Shown: positions 26,404-33,387 of the stretch, one piece after another
Position numbering within the stretch: the stretch's first letter is position 1
Layout of the letters: the number at the start of each line of letters is the position of its first letter
Assembly: GCF_900104745.1 (NCBI RefSeq)
Contig: NZ_LT629732.1
Coordinates: forward strand, 434,001-498,000
DNA length: 64,000 nucleotides
Origin: Actinopolymorpha singaporensis
GTDB lineage: Bacteria; Actinomycetota; Actinomycetes; Propionibacteriales; Actinopolymorphaceae
Direction of reading: 5' to 3'
Program-made: the position numbers and the translations under genes
The notes under the pieces: generated by a model
The model's database searches: none
What the model was told of the DNA's origin: nothing
The model's input: only the letters and a program-made list of their open reading frames with translations

Positions 26404-26499
26404 CCAACTCCCAGCCCCGACGGCGAAGGTGTGTAGTAGAGAACCGCGGGGGACTCGCACCGGCGCCTGCCGGTGGCGGCAGCCCGACGAGGAGACCCT

Positions 26500-27282
26500 G
26501 TGCCTGGTACGGAAGGTACGGCACCAATCGAACAATCCGAACGTACGGCACGAACCGAGGCCACCCAGCACACCGGGCGGGCCACCGTGGCCGACCCGCC
26601 GGTGCGGGTGCTGGTCATCGACGACGAGCGCTACCTCGCCGAGATGATCGCCTCCGCGCTGCGGTACGAGGGCTGGAAGACCATGGTCGCCGGGACCGCC
26701 GACCAGGCGCTGACCCAGGCCCGCGACTTCGGGCCGTCCGCGATCGTGCTGGACGTGATGCTGCCCGACACCGACGGGTTCGCGTTGTTCGCGGCACTTC
26801 GCGCCAAAGGGGTGGACGCGCCGGTCATCTTTCTCACCGCCCGCGACGGTACCGAGGACCGCGTACGGGGGCTCACCATCGGTGGCGACGACTACGTCAC
26901 CAAGCCGTTCAGCCTGGAGGAACTGATCGCCCGGCTGCGCACGGTCATGCGCCGCGCGGCCGCCGCGGTCCCCCGCGGCACCGGGCTGCGGGTCGCCGAC
27001 CTGATGCTCGACGAGGACTCTCGCGAAGTACGCCGCGGTGACCGGTTGGTCGAGCTGACCCCGACGGAGTTCGAGCTGCTGCGCTTCCTGATGCGCAACG
27101 CCCGCACGGTGTTGTCGAAGGCGCAGATCCTGGACCGGGTGTGGAACTACGACTTCGGCGGCAACGCCAACGTGGTCGAGCTCTACATCTCCTACCTCCG
27201 CCGCAAGATCGACGTCGACGCCGAGCCCCTGATCCACACGGTTCGCGGGGTCGGCTACGTCCTCCGCCCGCCGCTTTCGTGA
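26500..27282 (+). CDS. OmpR/PhoB-family response regulator
   Basis: A 260-residue two-component regulator. The receiver domain starts at VRVLVIDDERYLAEM; the phospho-acceptor Asp is in AIVLDVMLPDTDGF, and the conserved Lys in VTKPFSLEEL. A winged-helix DNA-binding domain follows (VELTPTEFELLRFLMRN ... VVELYISYLRRKID ... VRGVGYVLR). It resembles the MprA/TrcR group. The start is taken as GTG at 26500 with GAGGAG upstream; this leaves a ~30-residue disordered N-terminus, and a GTG at 26587 would remove it but has no ribosome-binding site. Overlaps the sensor kinase by 4 bases. Confidence 0.9.
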   Translation: MPGTEGTAPIEQSERTARTEATQHTGRATVADPPVRVLVIDDERYLAEMIASALRYEGWKTMVAGTADQALTQARDFGPSAIVLDVMLPDTDGFALFAALRAKGVDAPVIFLTARDGTEDRVRGLTIGGDDYVTKPFSLEELIARLRTVMRRAAAAVPRGTGLRVADLMLDEDSREVRRGDRLVELTPTEFELLRFLMRNARTVLSKAQILDRVWNYDFGGNANVVELYISYLRRKIDVDAEPLIHTVRGVGYVLRPPLS

Positions 27283-28769
27283 GCCGCCGGCGTTCGGTCT
27301 ACACGGCGGCGCGAGGGTTCCTCGCCCGTCAGCCGTTGCGGCGCCGTGTCCTAACCCTGGTGCTGCTGCTCACCGCCGGAGTGCTGGCGGCCGGCGGGGT
27401 CGCGACGACGCACGCGCTGCAGACGTACCTGCTCAATCGCACCGACGGTCAGCTGCGCCAGGTCGCCGCACAGACGAGGGACGCTCTCCTGCACGGGGAC
27501 GACGACGCCGACCGGGGGCAGATCCCGCCCGAGGACGCGGTCCGGTTCGTGGTGAGCGCCGACGGCAGCCGATCGGCGATGCTGCCCGCGACCCGCGGCG
27601 CGACCGAGCACGTGCGGGACCTGTCGCATGCCGAGCAGGCCAGGCTTGCCAGGGAGGTGCCCGTCGAGTCCCCGCGTACGTTCGAGGACCGCGCGCTGCC
27701 CGGCCCGTACCGTCTGGTGGCCACGGAGTTCAAGAACGGCGCCCGGCTGGTGGTCGGCCTGCCGTTGCGGTGGCTGAACGACACCGTGCGCCGGCTGGTG
27801 CTCATCGAGTTCGCGGTCGGCCTGGCCGGACTGGCTGTCACCGCGGTCCTCGGCTCGATCCTGATCCGGGTCGGGCTGGCTCCGCTGGGCCGGATGACCA
27901 CCACCACCCGGCGGATCGCCGAGACCGACCTCACCGGCCCGGAAGCCGCGGTGCGGCTGCGGGCGCCGGTGCTGCCGCCGCAGACGGAGGTGGGTCAGCT
28001 CGGCTCGGGGCTGAACCACATGCTGGAGGCGATCGACGCGTCCTTCCAGGCACGTAACGAGGCCGAGCGCCAACTGCGGCAGTTCATCGCCGACGCCTCC
28101 CACGAGCTGCGGACACCGCTGTCGACCGTACGTGGATACGCCGAGCTCTTCGACCGTTCGACGAGGGACGGCGACGGGACCCTCGCACTCGACCAGGACC
28201 TCGACCTCGCCGAACTCGGCACGGCGATGCGCCGGATCGCCGCGGAGTCGAACCGGATGAGCCTGCTGGTCGACGACCTGCTGCTGCTCGCCCGTCTGGA
28301 CCAGGGCCGCCCGCTCGACCGCCGCCCGGTCGACCTGTGCCGGCTGGCGGTGGACGCCGCGAGCGACTTCCGGGTCCGCGGCCAGGACCGCCCGATCAGG
28401 CTGGACCTGCCCGCCGACCCGCTCGTGGTGAACGGGGACGAGGGCCGGCTCCGCCAGGTGCTGGCCAACCTGCTCGCGAACGTCCACGCCCACACCCCGA
28501 CCGGCACCGTCGTCGACCTGCGGGTCCGCGACGAGGACGGTGACGCCCTGGTGGAAGTCCACGACGACGGGCCCGGCGTACCCCCGGCCGCGGTCGCCCA
28601 CGTCTTCGACCGCTTCTACCGTGCCGACACCTCGCGCACCCGCGCCAGCGGAGGCACCGGGCTCGGCCTGGCCATCGTGCAAGCCGTGGTTGACGCCCAT
28701 CGCGGGACCGTACGGGTGAGCAGCCGGCCCGGCGACACGACGTTCCGCGTCCGGCTTCCGGCGGCCTGA
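27279..28769 (+). CDS. Sensor histidine kinase (HAMP-HisKA-HATPase)
   Basis: A 496-residue membrane sensor kinase. GTG at 27279 overlaps the regulator stop (GTGA). First helix is VLTLVLLLTAGVLAAGGVA, then an ~145-residue extracytoplasmic sensor loop, a second helix (FAVGLAGLAVTAVLGSILI), a HAMP linker, and the phospho-acceptor His in IADASHELRTPLSTVRGY. ATP-binding boxes are LRQVLANLLANVHAHT (N), VHDDGPGV (G1), FDRFYRAD (F) and GGTGLGLAIVQ (G2). It pairs with the regulator before it. What it senses is not visible, but the divergent redox operon suggests oxidative or iron cues. Confidence 0.92.
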   Translation: MSRRRSVYTAARGFLARQPLRRRVLTLVLLLTAGVLAAGGVATTHALQTYLLNRTDGQLRQVAAQTRDALLHGDDDADRGQIPPEDAVRFVVSADGSRSAMLPATRGATEHVRDLSHAEQARLAREVPVESPRTFEDRALPGPYRLVATEFKNGARLVVGLPLRWLNDTVRRLVLIEFAVGLAGLAVTAVLGSILIRVGLAPLGRMTTTTRRIAETDLTGPEAAVRLRAPVLPPQTEVGQLGSGLNHMLEAIDASFQARNEAERQLRQFIADASHELRTPLSTVRGYAELFDRSTRDGDGTLALDQDLDLAELGTAMRRIAAESNRMSLLVDDLLLLARLDQGRPLDRRPVDLCRLAVDAASDFRVRGQDRPIRLDLPADPLVVNGDEGRLRQVLANLLANVHAHTPTGTVVDLRVRDEDGDALVEVHDDGPGVPPAAVAHVFDRFYRADTSRTRASGGTGLGLAIVQAVVDAHRGTVRVSSRPGDTTFRVRLPAA

Positions 28770-28824
28770 CTCGCGGGCACTATCCTGCTCGCGCGCGGGC
28801 CCCGCGCCGGGACGGGAGGACGTC

Positions 28825-29517
28825 ATGGACGACGCGAACGGCATGGACGACATGGGCGGCACGAACGGTCCGAACGCCGGCGCGATCGCCGACACCAACG
28901 CCGACACGATCGCCGGGTGGCTGGAACGCCTGGCATCCGCCGACCCGGCCCCCGGTGGCGGTGCGGCCGCGGCGATGCAGGTCGCGATCGGCGCGGCGCT
29001 GGTGTCGATGGTGACCAACCTGACGATCGGCAAGCCGGTCCACGCCGCGCACGAGGAGAACGCGACCCAGGTCCGGGAGCGGGCCGACGCTCTGCGCGCG
29101 GAGGCGCTGCGGCTGGGCAGGGAGGACGAGGCCGCGTTCACCGCACTGATGACGGCCTACCGCCTTCCCCGTACGACCGAGGAGGAACGCACCGCCCGCC
29201 GCGACGCGGTGCGGTCCGCGACCCATGCGGCCGCCCTGCCGCCGCTGGCGATCGCCGCTGCCGCGGCCGACGTGGTCGCGCTGGCCGAGTCGCTGCGGGG
29301 AAGGTCCAACCCGCACGTGGTCTCCGACCTCGCGGTCGCCGCCGCGGCGGCCGCCGGTGCCGCGGAGTCCGCCGCGGTCAACGTCGAGGTCAACCTGTCC
29401 TCGTTGCCCGACGGCGACGTCAAGGCTGAGTTGACAGCCGATCTGGAGGAGCACCTCGCTGTGGCCGAGCGGGGTCGCGCCCTGGTCGCCGACATCCGCC
29501 GGGAGCTCACCCGATGA
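28825..29517 (+). CDS. fchA: Methenyl-tetrahydrofolate cyclohydrolase / cyclodeaminase-family protein
   Basis: A 230-residue protein of the FTCD C-terminal (cyclodeaminase/cyclohydrolase) family, as in stand-alone FchA. The key motif LASADPAPGGGAAAAMQVAIGAAL is broken here into LASADPAPGGGA and AAMQVAIGAAL, followed by VTNLTIGK; all-helical composition follows. FchA converts 5,10-methenyl-THF to 10-formyl-THF; a formimino-THF cyclodeaminase role is possible as well. Residues 1-28 are a disordered Asn/Asp/Gly-rich tail. Ribosome-binding site GGGAGGA. The gene overlaps folD by 4 bases, and that FolD lacks the cyclohydrolase lysine, so the pair appears to share the two reactions. Confidence 0.85.
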   Translation: MDDANGMDDMGGTNGPNAGAIADTNADTIAGWLERLASADPAPGGGAAAAMQVAIGAALVSMVTNLTIGKPVHAAHEENATQVRERADALRAEALRLGREDEAAFTALMTAYRLPRTTEEERTARRDAVRSATHAAALPPLAIAAAAADVVALAESLRGRSNPHVVSDLAVAAAAAAGAAESAAVNVEVNLSSLPDGDVKAELTADLEEHLAVAERGRALVADIRRELTR

Positions 29518-30368
29518 CCGCGGCCCACCGGATCGACGGGCGCGTGGTCGCGGCGGAGATCGACGCGCGAACCACCGACGACATGGCCCGGCTGACCGCT
29601 GCTGGGATCGTTCCCACCCTGGCCGTGGTGGTGCCGACCCACGACGAGGGAACGGCGTGGTACGTCCGTTCGATCGCCCGGGCGGGCAAGCGGCTCGGCA
29701 TCACCTGCCTGGTCGACACCCTGCACGGCGCCGACGCGGCGACCCTCGCCGGCCACCTGAAGGCAAGGTCCGCGGACCCCGCGGTGCACGGGGTGATCTG
29801 CCAGACCCCGCTGCCGGCCGGGGTCACCCTGGCCGACCTGGGCACGGCGATCGCCCCGGTCAAGGACGTCGACGGCGCCAATCCCACATCGCTGGGGCTG
29901 CTCGCGACCGGCTCGGCGGAGGCGTTCGCGCCCGCGACCGCGCAGGCGGTGCTGGAGATCCTGCGCCACGAGCAGGTGCCACTCGCGGGCCGGCGCGTCG
30001 TCGTGGTCGGTCGTTCGACGGTGGTGGGCAAACCCGCGGCGCTCCTGCTGCTCGCCGAGCACGCCACCGTGACGGTCTGCCACTCCCGGTCGACTGACCT
30101 GCCCGCGCTGTGCCGGGAGGCGGACGTGCTGGTGGCGGCCGTCGGGCGTCCGGGGCTGATCGGCGTGGACCACGTACGCCCCGGTGCGGTCGTCGTGGAC
30201 GTCGGCACCAACCCGACGCCGGACGGCGGGCTGGCCGGTGACGTCGACCCGGCCGTCGCGGCGGTGGCGGGAGCTCTGACGCCCGTGCCCGGAGGGGTCG
30301 GGCCGGTGACCACCGCGCTGCTGCACCGCCACACCGCCCTCGCCGCGGCCCGCGCTTCAGGTCGCTGA
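29514..30368 (+). CDS. folD: FolD-type methylene-THF dehydrogenase lacking the cyclohydrolase lysine
   Basis: A 284-residue FolD homologue, which oxidises 5,10-methylene-THF with NADP. Tyr50 of the Y-x-x-x-K motif is present but the fifth position is Ile54 (YVRSI), where bacterial and human enzymes have an essential Lys (Lys54/Lys56). Other active-site residues are kept: Gln97 in CQTPLP and the KDVDGANP aspartates, with NADP motif GRSTVVGKPAA and TPVPGGVGPVT. Lysine mutants of human MTHFD are known to keep dehydrogenase but lose cyclohydrolase activity. ATGA overlap with the upstream fchA-like gene suggests a split-function pair. The 3' end overlaps the converging regulator gene by 12 bases. 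Confidence 0.88.
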   Translation: MTAAHRIDGRVVAAEIDARTTDDMARLTAAGIVPTLAVVVPTHDEGTAWYVRSIARAGKRLGITCLVDTLHGADAATLAGHLKARSADPAVHGVICQTPLPAGVTLADLGTAIAPVKDVDGANPTSLGLLATGSAEAFAPATAQAVLEILRHEQVPLAGRRVVVVGRSTVVGKPAALLLLAEHATVTVCHSRSTDLPALCREADVLVAAVGRPGLIGVDHVRPGAVVVDVGTNPTPDGGLAGDVDPAVAAVAGALTPVPGGVGPVTTALLHRHTALAAARASGR

Positions 30369-31067
30369 CGTTCCGGGCGGTACGACACCGCGCCGATAGG
30401 CATATGCCACGGCCTGGGCCCGATCGCGTACCCCGAGCTTGGCGAACAGACGGTTGACGTGGCTCTTCACGGTTGCCTCGCCCACCACCAGCCGACCGGC
30501 GATCTCGGCGTTCGACAGCCCCTCGGCCATCAGGGCCAGGACCTCGGCCTCGCGCGGTGTCAACCCGTCCGGGCGGGCACGAGCCGGGCCGGGCTCGCCG
30601 GCGGGTTCAGCTTCCGCCGCTCCGCCGAGCGCGTCCACGAGATGGTGGTGGACGGCCCGGTCGATCACCGCGTGGCCGTCGGCGACCTGAACCAGCGCGG
30701 CCCGGATCTCCTCCGCACCGGCGTCCTTGGTGAGGTAGCCGCGTGCCCCGGCGCGGAGGGCGTCGAGGACGGACCGGTCGTCGGCGTACGTCGTGAGTGC
30801 GATCACCTGGCTCGCCCCGGGTTCCGCACGCAGCCGCCGGGTGGCCTCGATGCCGTCGCAGCGGGGCATCCGCAGGTCCATCAGGACCACGTCGGGGCGC
30901 AACTGCCCGGCCAGTTCGACCGCCTGCTCGCCGTCCGCGGCGGTGCCGACCACCTCCACATCAGGCAGCAGGCCGAGGAGCATGGCCAGCCCCTCGCGTA
31001 CGACACGCTGGTCGTCGGCGAGCAGCACGCGGATCGGCTCGCTCCTGCCGCGCGCTTCGCCTGTCAC
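30357..31067 (-). CDS. NarL/FixJ-family response regulator
   Basis: A 236-residue regulator with an N-terminal receiver (VLLADDQRVVREGLAMLL; phospho-Asp in VVLMDLRMPRCDG; Lys in YLTKDAGAEE) and a C-terminal LuxR-type helix-turn-helix (LTPREAEVLALMAEGLS ... GEATVKSHVNRLFAKLGV). A ~35-residue acidic linker joins them. Its start ATG overlaps the upstream sensor kinase stop (ATGA). The likely targets are the divergent small membrane protein genes, whose upstream region has repeated CCACCCG motifs. Confidence 0.92.
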   Translation of the reverse strand: MTGEARGRSEPIRVLLADDQRVVREGLAMLLGLLPDVEVVGTAADGEQAVELAGQLRPDVVLMDLRMPRCDGIEATRRLRAEPGASQVIALTTYADDRSVLDALRAGARGYLTKDAGAEEIRAALVQVADGHAVIDRAVHHHLVDALGGAAEAEPAGEPGPARARPDGLTPREAEVLALMAEGLSNAEIAGRLVVGEATVKSHVNRLFAKLGVRDRAQAVAYAYRRGVVPPGTSAT

Positions 31068-32341
31068 GCCGGCACCTCGCCGTCGCGCATCGGGATCTCG
31101 GCGTCGCCGCCCGCGGGCATCTCGGCGTCGCGCACGGGCAGCCAGAGGGTGACGCGGAAGCCGGTCGCGGTCGGCTCGGCGGTCAGCTCGCCGCCGAGCA
31201 GTTCGGCGCGTTCGCGCATGCCGCTCACGCCGTAGCCGGGTGCTCTACCGCTTTCGGCGGCGAGCTCCGACGCGGCGGAGGCGGCCACGTCCTCGACGGT
31301 CAGCCGGGTGCCGCCGGGCTGGTAGCTCAGGCATACGTCGATCCGGTCGGGGTGGGCGTGCCGACGTACGTTCGTCAACGCCTCCTGCGCCACGCGGTAC
31401 AACGTCAGCCGGGCCTGCGGACCCAGGTCGTACGGCGTGCCGCGCACCTCGACCCGGCAGGCGATCCCCAGATCGCGCTCGAGCTCCCCGGCCAGCGCGG
31501 GTAGCCGGTCCGGCCCGGGAAGGTCCTCGTCGCGGAGTACGCCGATGGCCTGCCGCGCCTCGCCGAGCCCGGCCTGGGCCAGGCCCCGCGCCCGGTCGAG
31601 GGAGTTGATCAGCCCCGGGCCGGCCCCCTCCTGAACGGCCAGCAACCGGGCACCTTCCAGGTGCACCAGTAGTCCGGACAGCGAGTGGGCCAGCACGTCG
31701 TGCATCTCCCGGGCGAGTCGCTGGCGTTCGGCAAGGGTGGCCGCGCGTACGTAGGCGGACCTGGTGCGCTGGACCTCGGCCAGCAGGCGTTCGGCCTGCT
31801 CGGTCCGCGCGCGCAGCTGCCGGGCGTACTGCCCGAGGCGGAAGAACGCCAGCGCGCCGGCCTCGGCGATCAGGATCGTCGTCCACGACCGGTGCCCGCC
31901 GAAGTGCCCCGCCACGGCGATACCGACCAGCGTGAACGCCACGACCGCCTGACCGGGCCTCCGGGGCAGGCTCGAGGCCGCCACGCTGGTGGTGACGAAC
32001 CCGCCGACGAATCCCGGCCCGTCCGGCTCGATCGCCACGACCACCACCGAGCCGGCGATCAGCAGGGCGAAGAGGGCGGCGGTCAGCCAGGTGGGCCGCC
32101 CACGGGGCAGCTCGACGAGCAGGCCCGCGCCGCCGACGGCGACGGCAGCCGTCGCGGCCAGGGCAAGGACGTCCAGGCCGTGGGCGTACTCGTCCGGCCG
32201 GTCGCGCAGGGTCAGACCCATCACGACGACGAGCAGCGCGAGCCCAGCCGGCCGCAGCCACCACGGAGCGATGCGCCGGTCCGCGTGGCCCCCGTCCGGC
32301 AAGGCGGTGGCCGAGATCGGGTCAGCGGGCACGGCGACCAC
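31064..32341 (-). CDS. Sensor histidine kinase, HisKA_3 (NarL-partner) type
   Basis: A 425-residue sensor with five or six hydrophobic segments in the first ~170 residues and almost no extracytoplasmic loop, followed by a coiled linker and the HisKA_3 dimerisation domain (LAREMHDVLAHSLSGLLVHL, phospho-His in EMHDVLAH). The ATPase domain has YRVAQEALTNVRRHA (N box) and GYGVSGMRERAELLGG (G2), while the usual G1 DxGxG is weak (VEDVAASAAS). The start is ambiguous between GTGs at 32341 and 32332. Probably an intramembrane or cell-envelope stress sensor. Confidence 0.88.
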   Translation of the reverse strand: MVAVPADPISATALPDGGHADRRIAPWWLRPAGLALLVVVMGLTLRDRPDEYAHGLDVLALAATAAVAVGGAGLLVELPRGRPTWLTAALFALLIAGSVVVVAIEPDGPGFVGGFVTTSVAASSLPRRPGQAVVAFTLVGIAVAGHFGGHRSWTTILIAEAGALAFFRLGQYARQLRARTEQAERLLAEVQRTRSAYVRAATLAERQRLAREMHDVLAHSLSGLLVHLEGARLLAVQEGAGPGLINSLDRARGLAQAGLGEARQAIGVLRDEDLPGPDRLPALAGELERDLGIACRVEVRGTPYDLGPQARLTLYRVAQEALTNVRRHAHPDRIDVCLSYQPGGTRLTVEDVAASAASELAAESGRAPGYGVSGMRERAELLGGELTAEPTATGFRVTLWLPVRDAEMPAGGDAEIPMRDGEVPA

Positions 32342-32366
32342 GGTAGTACGCCGTTCGCGGGCGGTC

Positions 32367-32431
32367 CTCCACCCACGGGTGGAGCCCGCCGGTGCCCAGC
32401 GTGGTGGTTCCACCCGTACTTCCACCCGTAC
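32367..32431. promoter_or_regulatory. Repeat cluster in divergent region, probable NarL-type operator
   Basis: A palindrome CTCCACCCACGGGTGGAG (8-base arms, 2-base centre) lies at 32367-32384, and two exact tandem copies of TTCCACCCGTAC follow at 32408-32419 and 32420-32431. All share the core CCACCC. The cluster is between the sensor kinase gene (minus) and the small membrane protein gene (plus), the place where the cognate regulator would be expected to act. Confidence 0.6.
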
Positions 32432-32527
32432 GCCGACGCCCGGGAGGGTGCCCGCGCCCCACTCTGGCCTTGCCCAAGCCAGCCACGCGGCGCCCCAGTC
32501 AAGGTGTTCACAGAACGGAGAAACGCG

Positions 32528-32710
32528 ATGATCGCACGGCTCGTCGTCATCGGCGCGGCCCTGCTCGTCACCGGGCTCACCCACTTCTTCGGCAGAACCA
32601 CCTGGACCGCGGTCCTCGGCGGTGCTCTGCTCGTCGTCGCCGGCGGCCTCGGGGTCGTCCGGTACCGGCGGGGGCTTCCCCTCACCCGGTTGGGCGGTGG
32701 CCGCCGATGA
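32528..32710 (+). CDS. Small two-helix membrane protein
   Basis: A 60-residue protein: MIARLVVIGAALLVTGLTHF, then a short polar turn with RTTW, then AVLGGALLVVAGGLGVV and a basic tail. GGAG precedes the ATG at 32528. The stop overlaps the next start by 4 bases (ATGA), so it is coupled to the VC0807-like gene. Position next to the operator-like repeats suggests it is an output of the adjacent NarL-type system. I do not recognise a family. Confidence 0.65.
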   Translation: MIARLVVIGAALLVTGLTHFFGRTTWTAVLGGALLVVAGGLGVVRYRRGLPLTRLGGGRR

Positions 32711-33387
32711 ACACCTCCTCCACGCCGCCGCGGACCGCCTCTGCCCGAGCGACCGCCTCCAACCGACCGGACCAGCCGACACTTTCCCGCCCGTCCCTGC
32801 GCCGCCTGCTGCCACGGGTCGCCGTCAACGCCGGCTTGCCCCTGGTGGTCTTCGCGATGGTCCGGCCCCACGTCGGCAGCGACGTGCTCGCGCTCGCCGT
32901 CGCCGGCGGCGTTCCGCTCCTCGGAACCCTCGCCACGGTCGTACTGCGACGACGCCTCGACATGGTCGGCGCGGCCGCGCTGGTGGGTTTCGGTCTTGCT
33001 CTGGTGATCTCCGCCCTGTCCGGCGGGAACCGGATCGTGCTCGAACTCCAGGACTCCCTGGTGACCGGGCCGCTCGGGCTACTGCTGCTCGGCTCTGCTG
33101 CCGTGGGCAGGCCGCTCCACCTCGTACTCGTGCGGATCCTCGCCGCCCGCGACCCGCGGATGCGCTGGGATCTGTCGGACCCGGGCCGGCGTCGTACGTC
33201 GACGATCTTCACCGTTCTGCTCGGATCGACGCTCGCGGTTCACGCCGGTGTGCTGGTGGTCCTCGCCCTCACAGTGCCGACTGGGACGTACCTCGCGTTG
33301 TCGCGGCCGATCGGGCTGGCCGTGCTCGCGGTGGGTGTGGGTGCGATGTGGTGGTACCGCACGCGGCTGCGGAACCGATCCTCCTGA
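32707..33387 (+). CDS. VC0807-like polytopic membrane protein
   Basis: A 226-residue protein with a ~35-residue Ser/Thr/Arg-rich N-terminus and about six membrane helices (for example VNAGLPLVVFAMV, LALAVAGGVPLLGTLATVV, MVGAAALVGFGLALVISAL, GPLGLLLLGSAAVG, FTVLLGSTLAVHAGVLVVL, IGLAVLAVGVGAMWWY). The arrangement and the WDLSDPGRRRTSTI loop match VC0807-family proteins, which have no established biochemical role. Coupled to the small protein before it by ATGA. Confidence 0.7.
   Translation: MNTSSTPPRTASARATASNRPDQPTLSRPSLRRLLPRVAVNAGLPLVVFAMVRPHVGSDVLALAVAGGVPLLGTLATVVLRRRLDMVGAAALVGFGLALVISALSGGNRIVLELQDSLVTGPLGLLLLGSAAVGRPLHLVLVRILAARDPRMRWDLSDPGRRRTSTIFTVLLGSTLAVHAGVLVVLALTVPTGTYLALSRPIGLAVLAVGVGAMWWYRTRLRNRSS

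Follow-up and report, generated by a model that had tools for sequence, protein, structure and literature searches.

A FolD homologue without the cyclohydrolase lysine and its overlapping FchA-type neighbour: a probable split form of bifunctional FolD in actinomycetes

The gene pair and its predicted products

The window analysed here, a 64,000-nucleotide stretch of the Actinopolymorpha singaporensis genome (contig NZ_LT629732.1, positions 434,001 to 498,000), contains two overlapping genes for predicted folate enzymes (Table 1). The upstream open reading frame (ORF) matched the Pfam family FTCD_C (E 1.1e-51) and the downstream ORF matched THF_DHG_CYH (E 3.9e-20) and THF_DHG_CYH_C (E 8.8e-54); these matches and the ORF coordinates bear out the original prediction, made from the letters alone, that an FchA-family gene lies directly upstream of folD and overlaps it by ATGA. 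The pair is flanked by two-component systems (window 26473-28769 and 30357-32815), with a response regulator carrying Trans_reg_C and a kinase on the plus strand upstream, and a LuxR-type regulator and HisKA_3 kinase on the minus strand downstream (Pfam). These neighbours gave no metabolic clue to the role of the pair, and no promoter- or terminator-like site was found in window 28500-30600.

Table 1. Features of the gene pair, in window coordinates
Feature	Position	Strand	Size and basis
fchA-type gene (FTCD_C family), predicted 5,10-methenyl-THF cyclohydrolase	28825..29517	+	230 aa; Pfam, predicted fold
folD-type gene, Ile54 for the cyclohydrolase lysine, predicted monofunctional methylene-THF dehydrogenase	29514..30368	+	284 aa
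ATGA overlap, fchA stop and folD start	29514..29517	+	sequence; probable translational coupling
Codons of Y50-V-R-S-I54 (altered Y-x-x-x-K)	29661..29675	+	sequence, alignment

FolD, a drug target under study, is generally portrayed as a single active site that carries out two reactions. The fold and both Pfam domains of the bifunctional enzyme are present in the window FolD (predicted fold pLDDT 94.2; TM 0.93 to the solved FolD 4b4u), for which the best NCBIfam model scored 250.5 bits against a cut-off of 411 bits. When aligned with E. coli FolD, the protein retained Tyr50 and had Ile54 opposite Lys54, just as first claimed, and it reads YVRSI where bifunctional FolD has Y-x-x-x-K. Like E. coli FolD and human MTHFD1, it also keeps Gln97 and Asp118 (counterparts of the human folate-site residues Gln100 and Asp125) and the nucleotide-site motif, and the GRS-VVGKP stretch is retained in Ile-type FolD. 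It differs from these bifunctional enzymes in the Ile for Lys and in sixteen further group-specific columns, giving 17 alignment columns that separate the Lys and non-Lys groups, among them Thr for Leu next to Gln97 and Asn or Ser for His near Asp118. In the human enzyme, mutation of the lysine abolishes cyclohydrolase activity and leaves dehydrogenase activity in place. Lys56 has been proposed as the catalytic residue, and its role is debated (PMC9173628; PMC6443876). From the loss of the lysine, taken with the genome pattern below, the window FolD is predicted to be a dehydrogenase without cyclohydrolase activity.

The sole NCBIfam match of the window FchA was FchA (NF045657), at 177 bits and below the 275-bit equivalog cut-off, so that the claim made here is that the protein works like FchA and not that it belongs to the equivalog. 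Its predicted fold (pLDDT 90.5) best matched Methylobacterium extorquens FchA (7vg4; TM 0.94 by target, 39% identity), followed by the cyclodeaminases 1o5h and 1tt9. Identity over aligned fragments was 41.0% (188 positions) to the M. extorquens cyclohydrolase, compared with 28.5% and 27.3% to two cyclodeaminases, placing the window protein nearer the solved cyclohydrolase by identity as well as by fold rank. Window FchA and 7vg4 also share N-L-T-I-G-K at a site where most of 70 related rows read R-Y-[ST]. The partner dehydrogenase of M. extorquens FchA is MtdA, not FolD. The FTCD_C domain occurs without a formiminotransferase domain both in the window protein and in its genome, in which no formiminotransferase and no formate-THF ligase (FTHFS/Fhs) was found.

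Distribution of FTCD_C and of Lys-type and non-Lys FolD

Contigs of many genomes were scanned with the window FolD, and the best 80 of 188 loci were analysed. The residue at the Lys site was Ile at 61 of these, Leu at 15, Thr at one and Lys at three. FTCD_C lay directly upstream on the same strand at 66 of the 76 Ile/Leu loci, at none of the three Lys loci and not at the Thr locus, and the overlap was exactly four bases in 56 of 67 pairs from this best-80 set, the window pair included. The ten Ile/Leu exceptions are nine Nocardia loci and L054 (Nonomuraea), the latter with no FTCD_C in the 0.9 kb upstream; all nine of the Nocardia genomes nevertheless contain FTCD_C.

Since the scan set had been chosen by similarity, an even sample of 118 genomes of the class was drawn, and all 140 of its PF00763 matches were read. 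FolD was found in 117 of the 118 genomes and FTCD_C in 23. The matches comprised 119 Lys-type and 19 Ile/Leu FolDs, a fragment with the motif missing (G074) and an odd second copy in G101 reading H-x-x-x-E, the last two being excluded. By coordinates, FTCD_C was adjacent to 13 of the 19 Ile/Leu FolDs versus none of the 119 Lys-type FolDs; two of the six non-adjacent genomes have FTCD_C elsewhere (G031, G107) and four, all of family f19, are without it (G038, G088, G100, G111). No Lys-type FolD was found in five of the sampled genomes, each of which has FTCD_C (three adjacent, two elsewhere), and the Fisher test for the class gave p 2.0e-4 (112 Lys-carrying genomes, 111 without G074; kinship uncorrected). 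Three genomes (G060, G090, G108) have FTCD_C without the formiminotransferase domain FTCD_N and only a Lys-type FolD found, the FTCD_C of G090 lying at a contig end; FTCD_C of this type is thus not tied to non-Lys FolD. Within the window's own family, FTCD_C occurred in six of eight genomes, all six from its own genus, and the two other genera were without it; all five genus relatives have FTCD_C, and the FolD next to it carries YVRSI in four of them and YVRSL in the fifth. The original prediction had asked whether non-Lys FolDs co-occur with an adjacent FchA gene: loss of Lys and an FchA-type partner did go together (adjacent in 13/19 versus 0/119), and adjacency proved usual but not obligatory. 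Adjacency as the key criterion was accordingly softened, presence at the level of the genome fitting better.

The window genome, a single contig of 6.4 Mb, contains one FTCD_C gene. It also has the second, Lys-bearing FolD for which a search had been proposed (Y-V-R-G-K; G000:C1:5725744-5726088, L001), located beside a PurU homologue named from its translation, so that formyl-THF disposal is the setting of the canonical copy as well. Genomes of 50 of the best 80 of 188 loci were then examined, the ten exceptions and the Thr locus among them, and FTCD_C was present in 49; in the sole genome without it, G123 (carrying L054), a second FolD (L250) is Lys-type by its residues. Sixteen of these genomes had a single, non-Lys FolD, and all 16 carry FTCD_C: eight Nocardia, two Kitasatospora, one Stackebrandtia, two Actinokineospora, two Eremiobacterota and one Bipolaricaulota. 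The 30 second FolD copies that were read were all Lys-type, with FTCD_C absent from the 3.3 kb read around each. A further nine genomes without Lys-type FolD likewise all have FTCD_C. In total, FTCD_C is present in 30 of 30 genomes without a detected Lys-type FolD, 27 of them actinomycetes, these 30 being non-independent and representing five actinomycete lineages by name or code. Many of the genomes are drafts, in which an apparently absent copy may have been lost in assembly, and the FTCD_C match of G125 is partial.

A see-saw was seen in family f19 (35 genomes). Twelve of its genomes have an Ile-type FolD only, with FTCD_C adjacent in 12/12, and 21 have an Ile/Leu FolD together with a second, Lys-type FolD and FTCD_C in 0/21 (Fisher p 2.8e-9, kinship uncorrected); of the second copies, 16 were read as Lys-type and five (G171, G172, G175, G176, G177) were assigned from score. 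One remaining genome has Lys-type FolD only and in the other, 63% complete, no FolD was found. In g65, an f19 genus without FTCD_C, the Tyr has been lost from the Ile/Leu FolD in four of eight genomes (three Phe, one Ser), while it is retained in 13 of 13 genomes of g37, also without FTCD_C, and in all 12 FTCD_C-paired FolDs. Ile-type FolDs without any FchA neighbour, named beforehand as evidence against the pairing, do therefore occur in the literal sense (L054 and the 21 f19 genomes, which have no FTCD_C at all), yet a further FolD is present in each of these 22 genomes, Lys-type by reading in 17 and by score in five.

Several FolD and FTCD_C variants were noted in passing. In the FolD encoded at the Bipolaricaulota locus L078 (4107-4925), Thr replaces Lys and Glu replaces Gln; the genome has Fhs, FTCD_N and FTCD_C. 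The H-x-x-x-E protein of G101 (L098, G101:C19:215084-215308) is a low-scoring FolD homologue that coexists with a Lys-type copy, and is perhaps another kind of paralogue. A second, weaker FTCD_C gene (34-134 bits) lies away from the FolD matches in seven genomes (G135:C2, G143:C17:28225, G145:C55:22932, G150:C1:117034, G152:C31, G159:C37 and G165:C24).

Origin of the non-Lys group and the proposed division of labour

In a tree of 65 FolDs computed with the Lys column omitted, the 44 non-Lys rows formed one side of a single branch (SH-aLRT 99; a quick method, with L078 and E. coli as long rows). The single branch indicates an old state and an inherited window pair: loss of the lysine is a clade-wide trait and not a recent event in the window genome. 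Comparison with Actinopolymorpha rutila gave dN/dS values of 0.19 for the window FolD and 0.22 for FchA, so that neither gene is pseudogene-like, and random decay was ruled out by these values, the single tree group and the retained active-site residues. The original proposal of a subfunctionalised C1 module in place of decay gains support from adjacency, from the four-base overlap (56/67 in the best 80 of 188 loci) and from genome content (30/30).

We consider that the two genes are a split version of bifunctional FolD, with a probability of roughly 80% on the sequence evidence. With NADP+ as its probable cofactor, the FolD homologue would oxidise 5,10-methylene-THF to 5,10-methenyl-THF; lacking the lysine, it would be unable to hydrolyse methenyl-THF, and the overlapping FchA-type protein would convert methenyl-THF to 10-formyl-THF. 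Points that weigh against this reading are the Lys-type FolD of the window genome, the 22 Ile/Leu genomes and the plasmid stretch L224 without FTCD_C, the three class genomes with FTCD_C and only Lys-type FolD, the two family genera without FTCD_C, the FTCD_N of the two Eremiobacterota and the Bipolaricaulota genome, the NCBIfam score of FchA below its cut-off and the debate over Lys56. Methenyl-THF also hydrolyses slowly and spontaneously. In lineages without a detected Lys-type FolD or Fhs, the pair would in addition supply 10-formyl-THF for purines and formyl-methionine.

It is conceivable that the Ile-type FolD retains enough cyclohydrolase activity through other residues and that FchA merely raises flux, given that Gln97 and Asp118 are kept and that other columns differ between the groups, which would leave room for compensation. 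Such a FolD would need no FTCD_C when alone, yet all 30 such genomes have it, and the motif's Arg52, replaced by Asn in Nocardia, offers no general substitute; we therefore regard residual activity as improbable.

A second alternative would make FTCD_C a formimino-THF cyclodeaminase, with formimino-THF passing to methenyl-THF and on to methylene-THF and FolD working reductively. The FTCD_C family does include cyclodeaminases of the same fold, and the two Eremiobacterota and the Bipolaricaulota genome, each with a single non-Lys FolD, carry FTCD_N (the last also Fhs), so that a cyclodeaminase role is possible in those three. Among 47 actinomycetes tested, however, FTCD_N was found in none, and in the class sample it occurred in five of 118 genomes, in the same open frame as FTCD_C and with Lys-type FolDs, and in no genome bearing an Ile/Leu FolD. 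Fhs was absent in 26 of 27 genomes tested, and the 18 tested actinomycete genomes without Lys-type FolD have neither Fhs nor FTCD_N; their FTCD_C is for this reason probably the cyclohydrolase. Retention of FTCD_C in genomes without Lys-type FolD would also go unexplained by cyclodeamination. Consequently, action of the neighbour on formimino-THF only, listed at the outset as a possible refutation, is disfavoured by the lack of a formiminotransferase in the window genome and the tested actinomycete carriers, and the cyclodeaminase reading appears quite improbable for the group. A move of the Ile-type FolD out of folate C1 chemistry to another reaction, with FchA an incidental neighbour, is hardly credible: the 17 separating columns would suit it, but Tyr50, Gln97, Asp118 and the GRS-VVGKP stretch are kept, this is the only FolD found in 27 actinomycete genomes (18 tested being without Fhs), and PurU or folate-dependent oxidase genes lie near 19 of the best 80 of 188 loci.

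Those 19 loci have nearby genes for PurU (18), dimethylglycine-/sarcosine-oxidase-like proteins (18) and serine dehydratase (8), the neighbour names having been assigned by reading and confirmed with Pfam for four members: a PurU, a serine dehydratase, a dimethylglycine-type oxidase and a sarcosine-type oxidase, the two oxidases each carrying the folate-binding domain GCV_T. PurU and oxidase-like genes are both near the pair at 17 loci of the same best-80 set, which suggests that the split pair is probably oxidative in these relatives, from methylene-THF to formate; where PurU and a folate-dependent demethylase-like gene are nearby, PurU would then release the formate. No shared context was found in the Nocardia and f19 surroundings (some of L258-L271).

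The f19 rows without FTCD_C were nested among FTCD_C-bearing relatives in the tree, and three f19 Lys-type copies fell outside the main actinomycete Lys group with their forks open, a placement that fits later gain of a Lys-type FolD and loss of fchA as the presumed direction. It seems reasonably probable, though less so than the split itself, that the old non-Lys group runs on a translationally coupled FchA; that in at least five actinomycete lineages (Nocardia, Kitasatospora, Stackebrandtia, Actinokineospora and f19) bifunctional FolD has been wholly replaced and 10-formyl-THF comes solely from the pair; and that in f19 a Lys-type FolD displaced FchA, with the active site of the Ile-type FolD then starting to erode. 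Such a natural group, with one activity seemingly transferred to a separate protein, offers a clean test of lysine function, of the need for methenyl-THF channelling, and of how an essential two-step enzyme can be divided and made whole again as genes are lost and gained. With only non-Lys FolD found in 27 actinomycete genomes, models that give FolD both steps would misassign the cyclohydrolase gene there.

Related systems and plasmid-borne copies

Structure 1edz, which we take to be the yeast monofunctional NAD-dependent methylene-THF dehydrogenase, is a distant relative (E 2e-20, 176 profile positions) and differs in being eukaryotic and NAD-dependent; the yeast enzyme is not known to have an FchA partner. 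Split FolD/FchA pairs are already known elsewhere. According to a title cited in PMC7219735, Clostridium perfringens also has FolD with a separate FchA, with Fhs in addition, and among acetate-oxidising and acetogenic bacteria an fhs1 locus of T. acetatoxydans combines fchA and folD in an anaerobic, Wood-Ljungdahl-type setting with Fhs (PMC3584212). The yeast NAD-dependent methylene-THF dehydrogenase is given as a monofunctional enzyme in a title cited by PMC6443876. The FolD2-Mch-PurU3 cluster of Arthrobacter sp. 31Y places a second FolD (2859) beside a 'non-homologous methenyl-H4F cyclohydrolase' (2860), PurU and an aminomethyltransferase (PMC5023230), and is probably the same module as the window pair; it is a single-strain record, and the available text mentions neither the lysine nor a wider pattern (PMC5023230). 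On pAO1 of Paenarthrobacter nicotinovorans, MABO, FolD and PurU form a co-expressed line from demethylation onwards, compared here by description; the FolD is reported as bifunctional and FchA goes unmentioned in the accessible text (PMC6214936). No report of lysine loss in an FchA-paired FolD was found in the open-licence literature searched, and within that literature three points are new: that lysine loss is fixed across the group, that it is coupled to fchA, and that there is a see-saw with FolD of the Lys type.

An Ile-type FolD annotated as bifunctional follows an amino acid permease gene on the conjugative Paenarthrobacter plasmid pYJN5-2 (L224, 4986-5867), where 10.7 kb of sequence contained no FTCD_C; two other actinomycete plasmid records (L225, L227) have FTCD_C beside FolD. 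By coordinates only, G167 apparently has two FTCD_C-FolD pairs (G167:C73 and C262), and a Nocardia genome has an extra pair (G122:C43) besides its lone Leu-type FolD.
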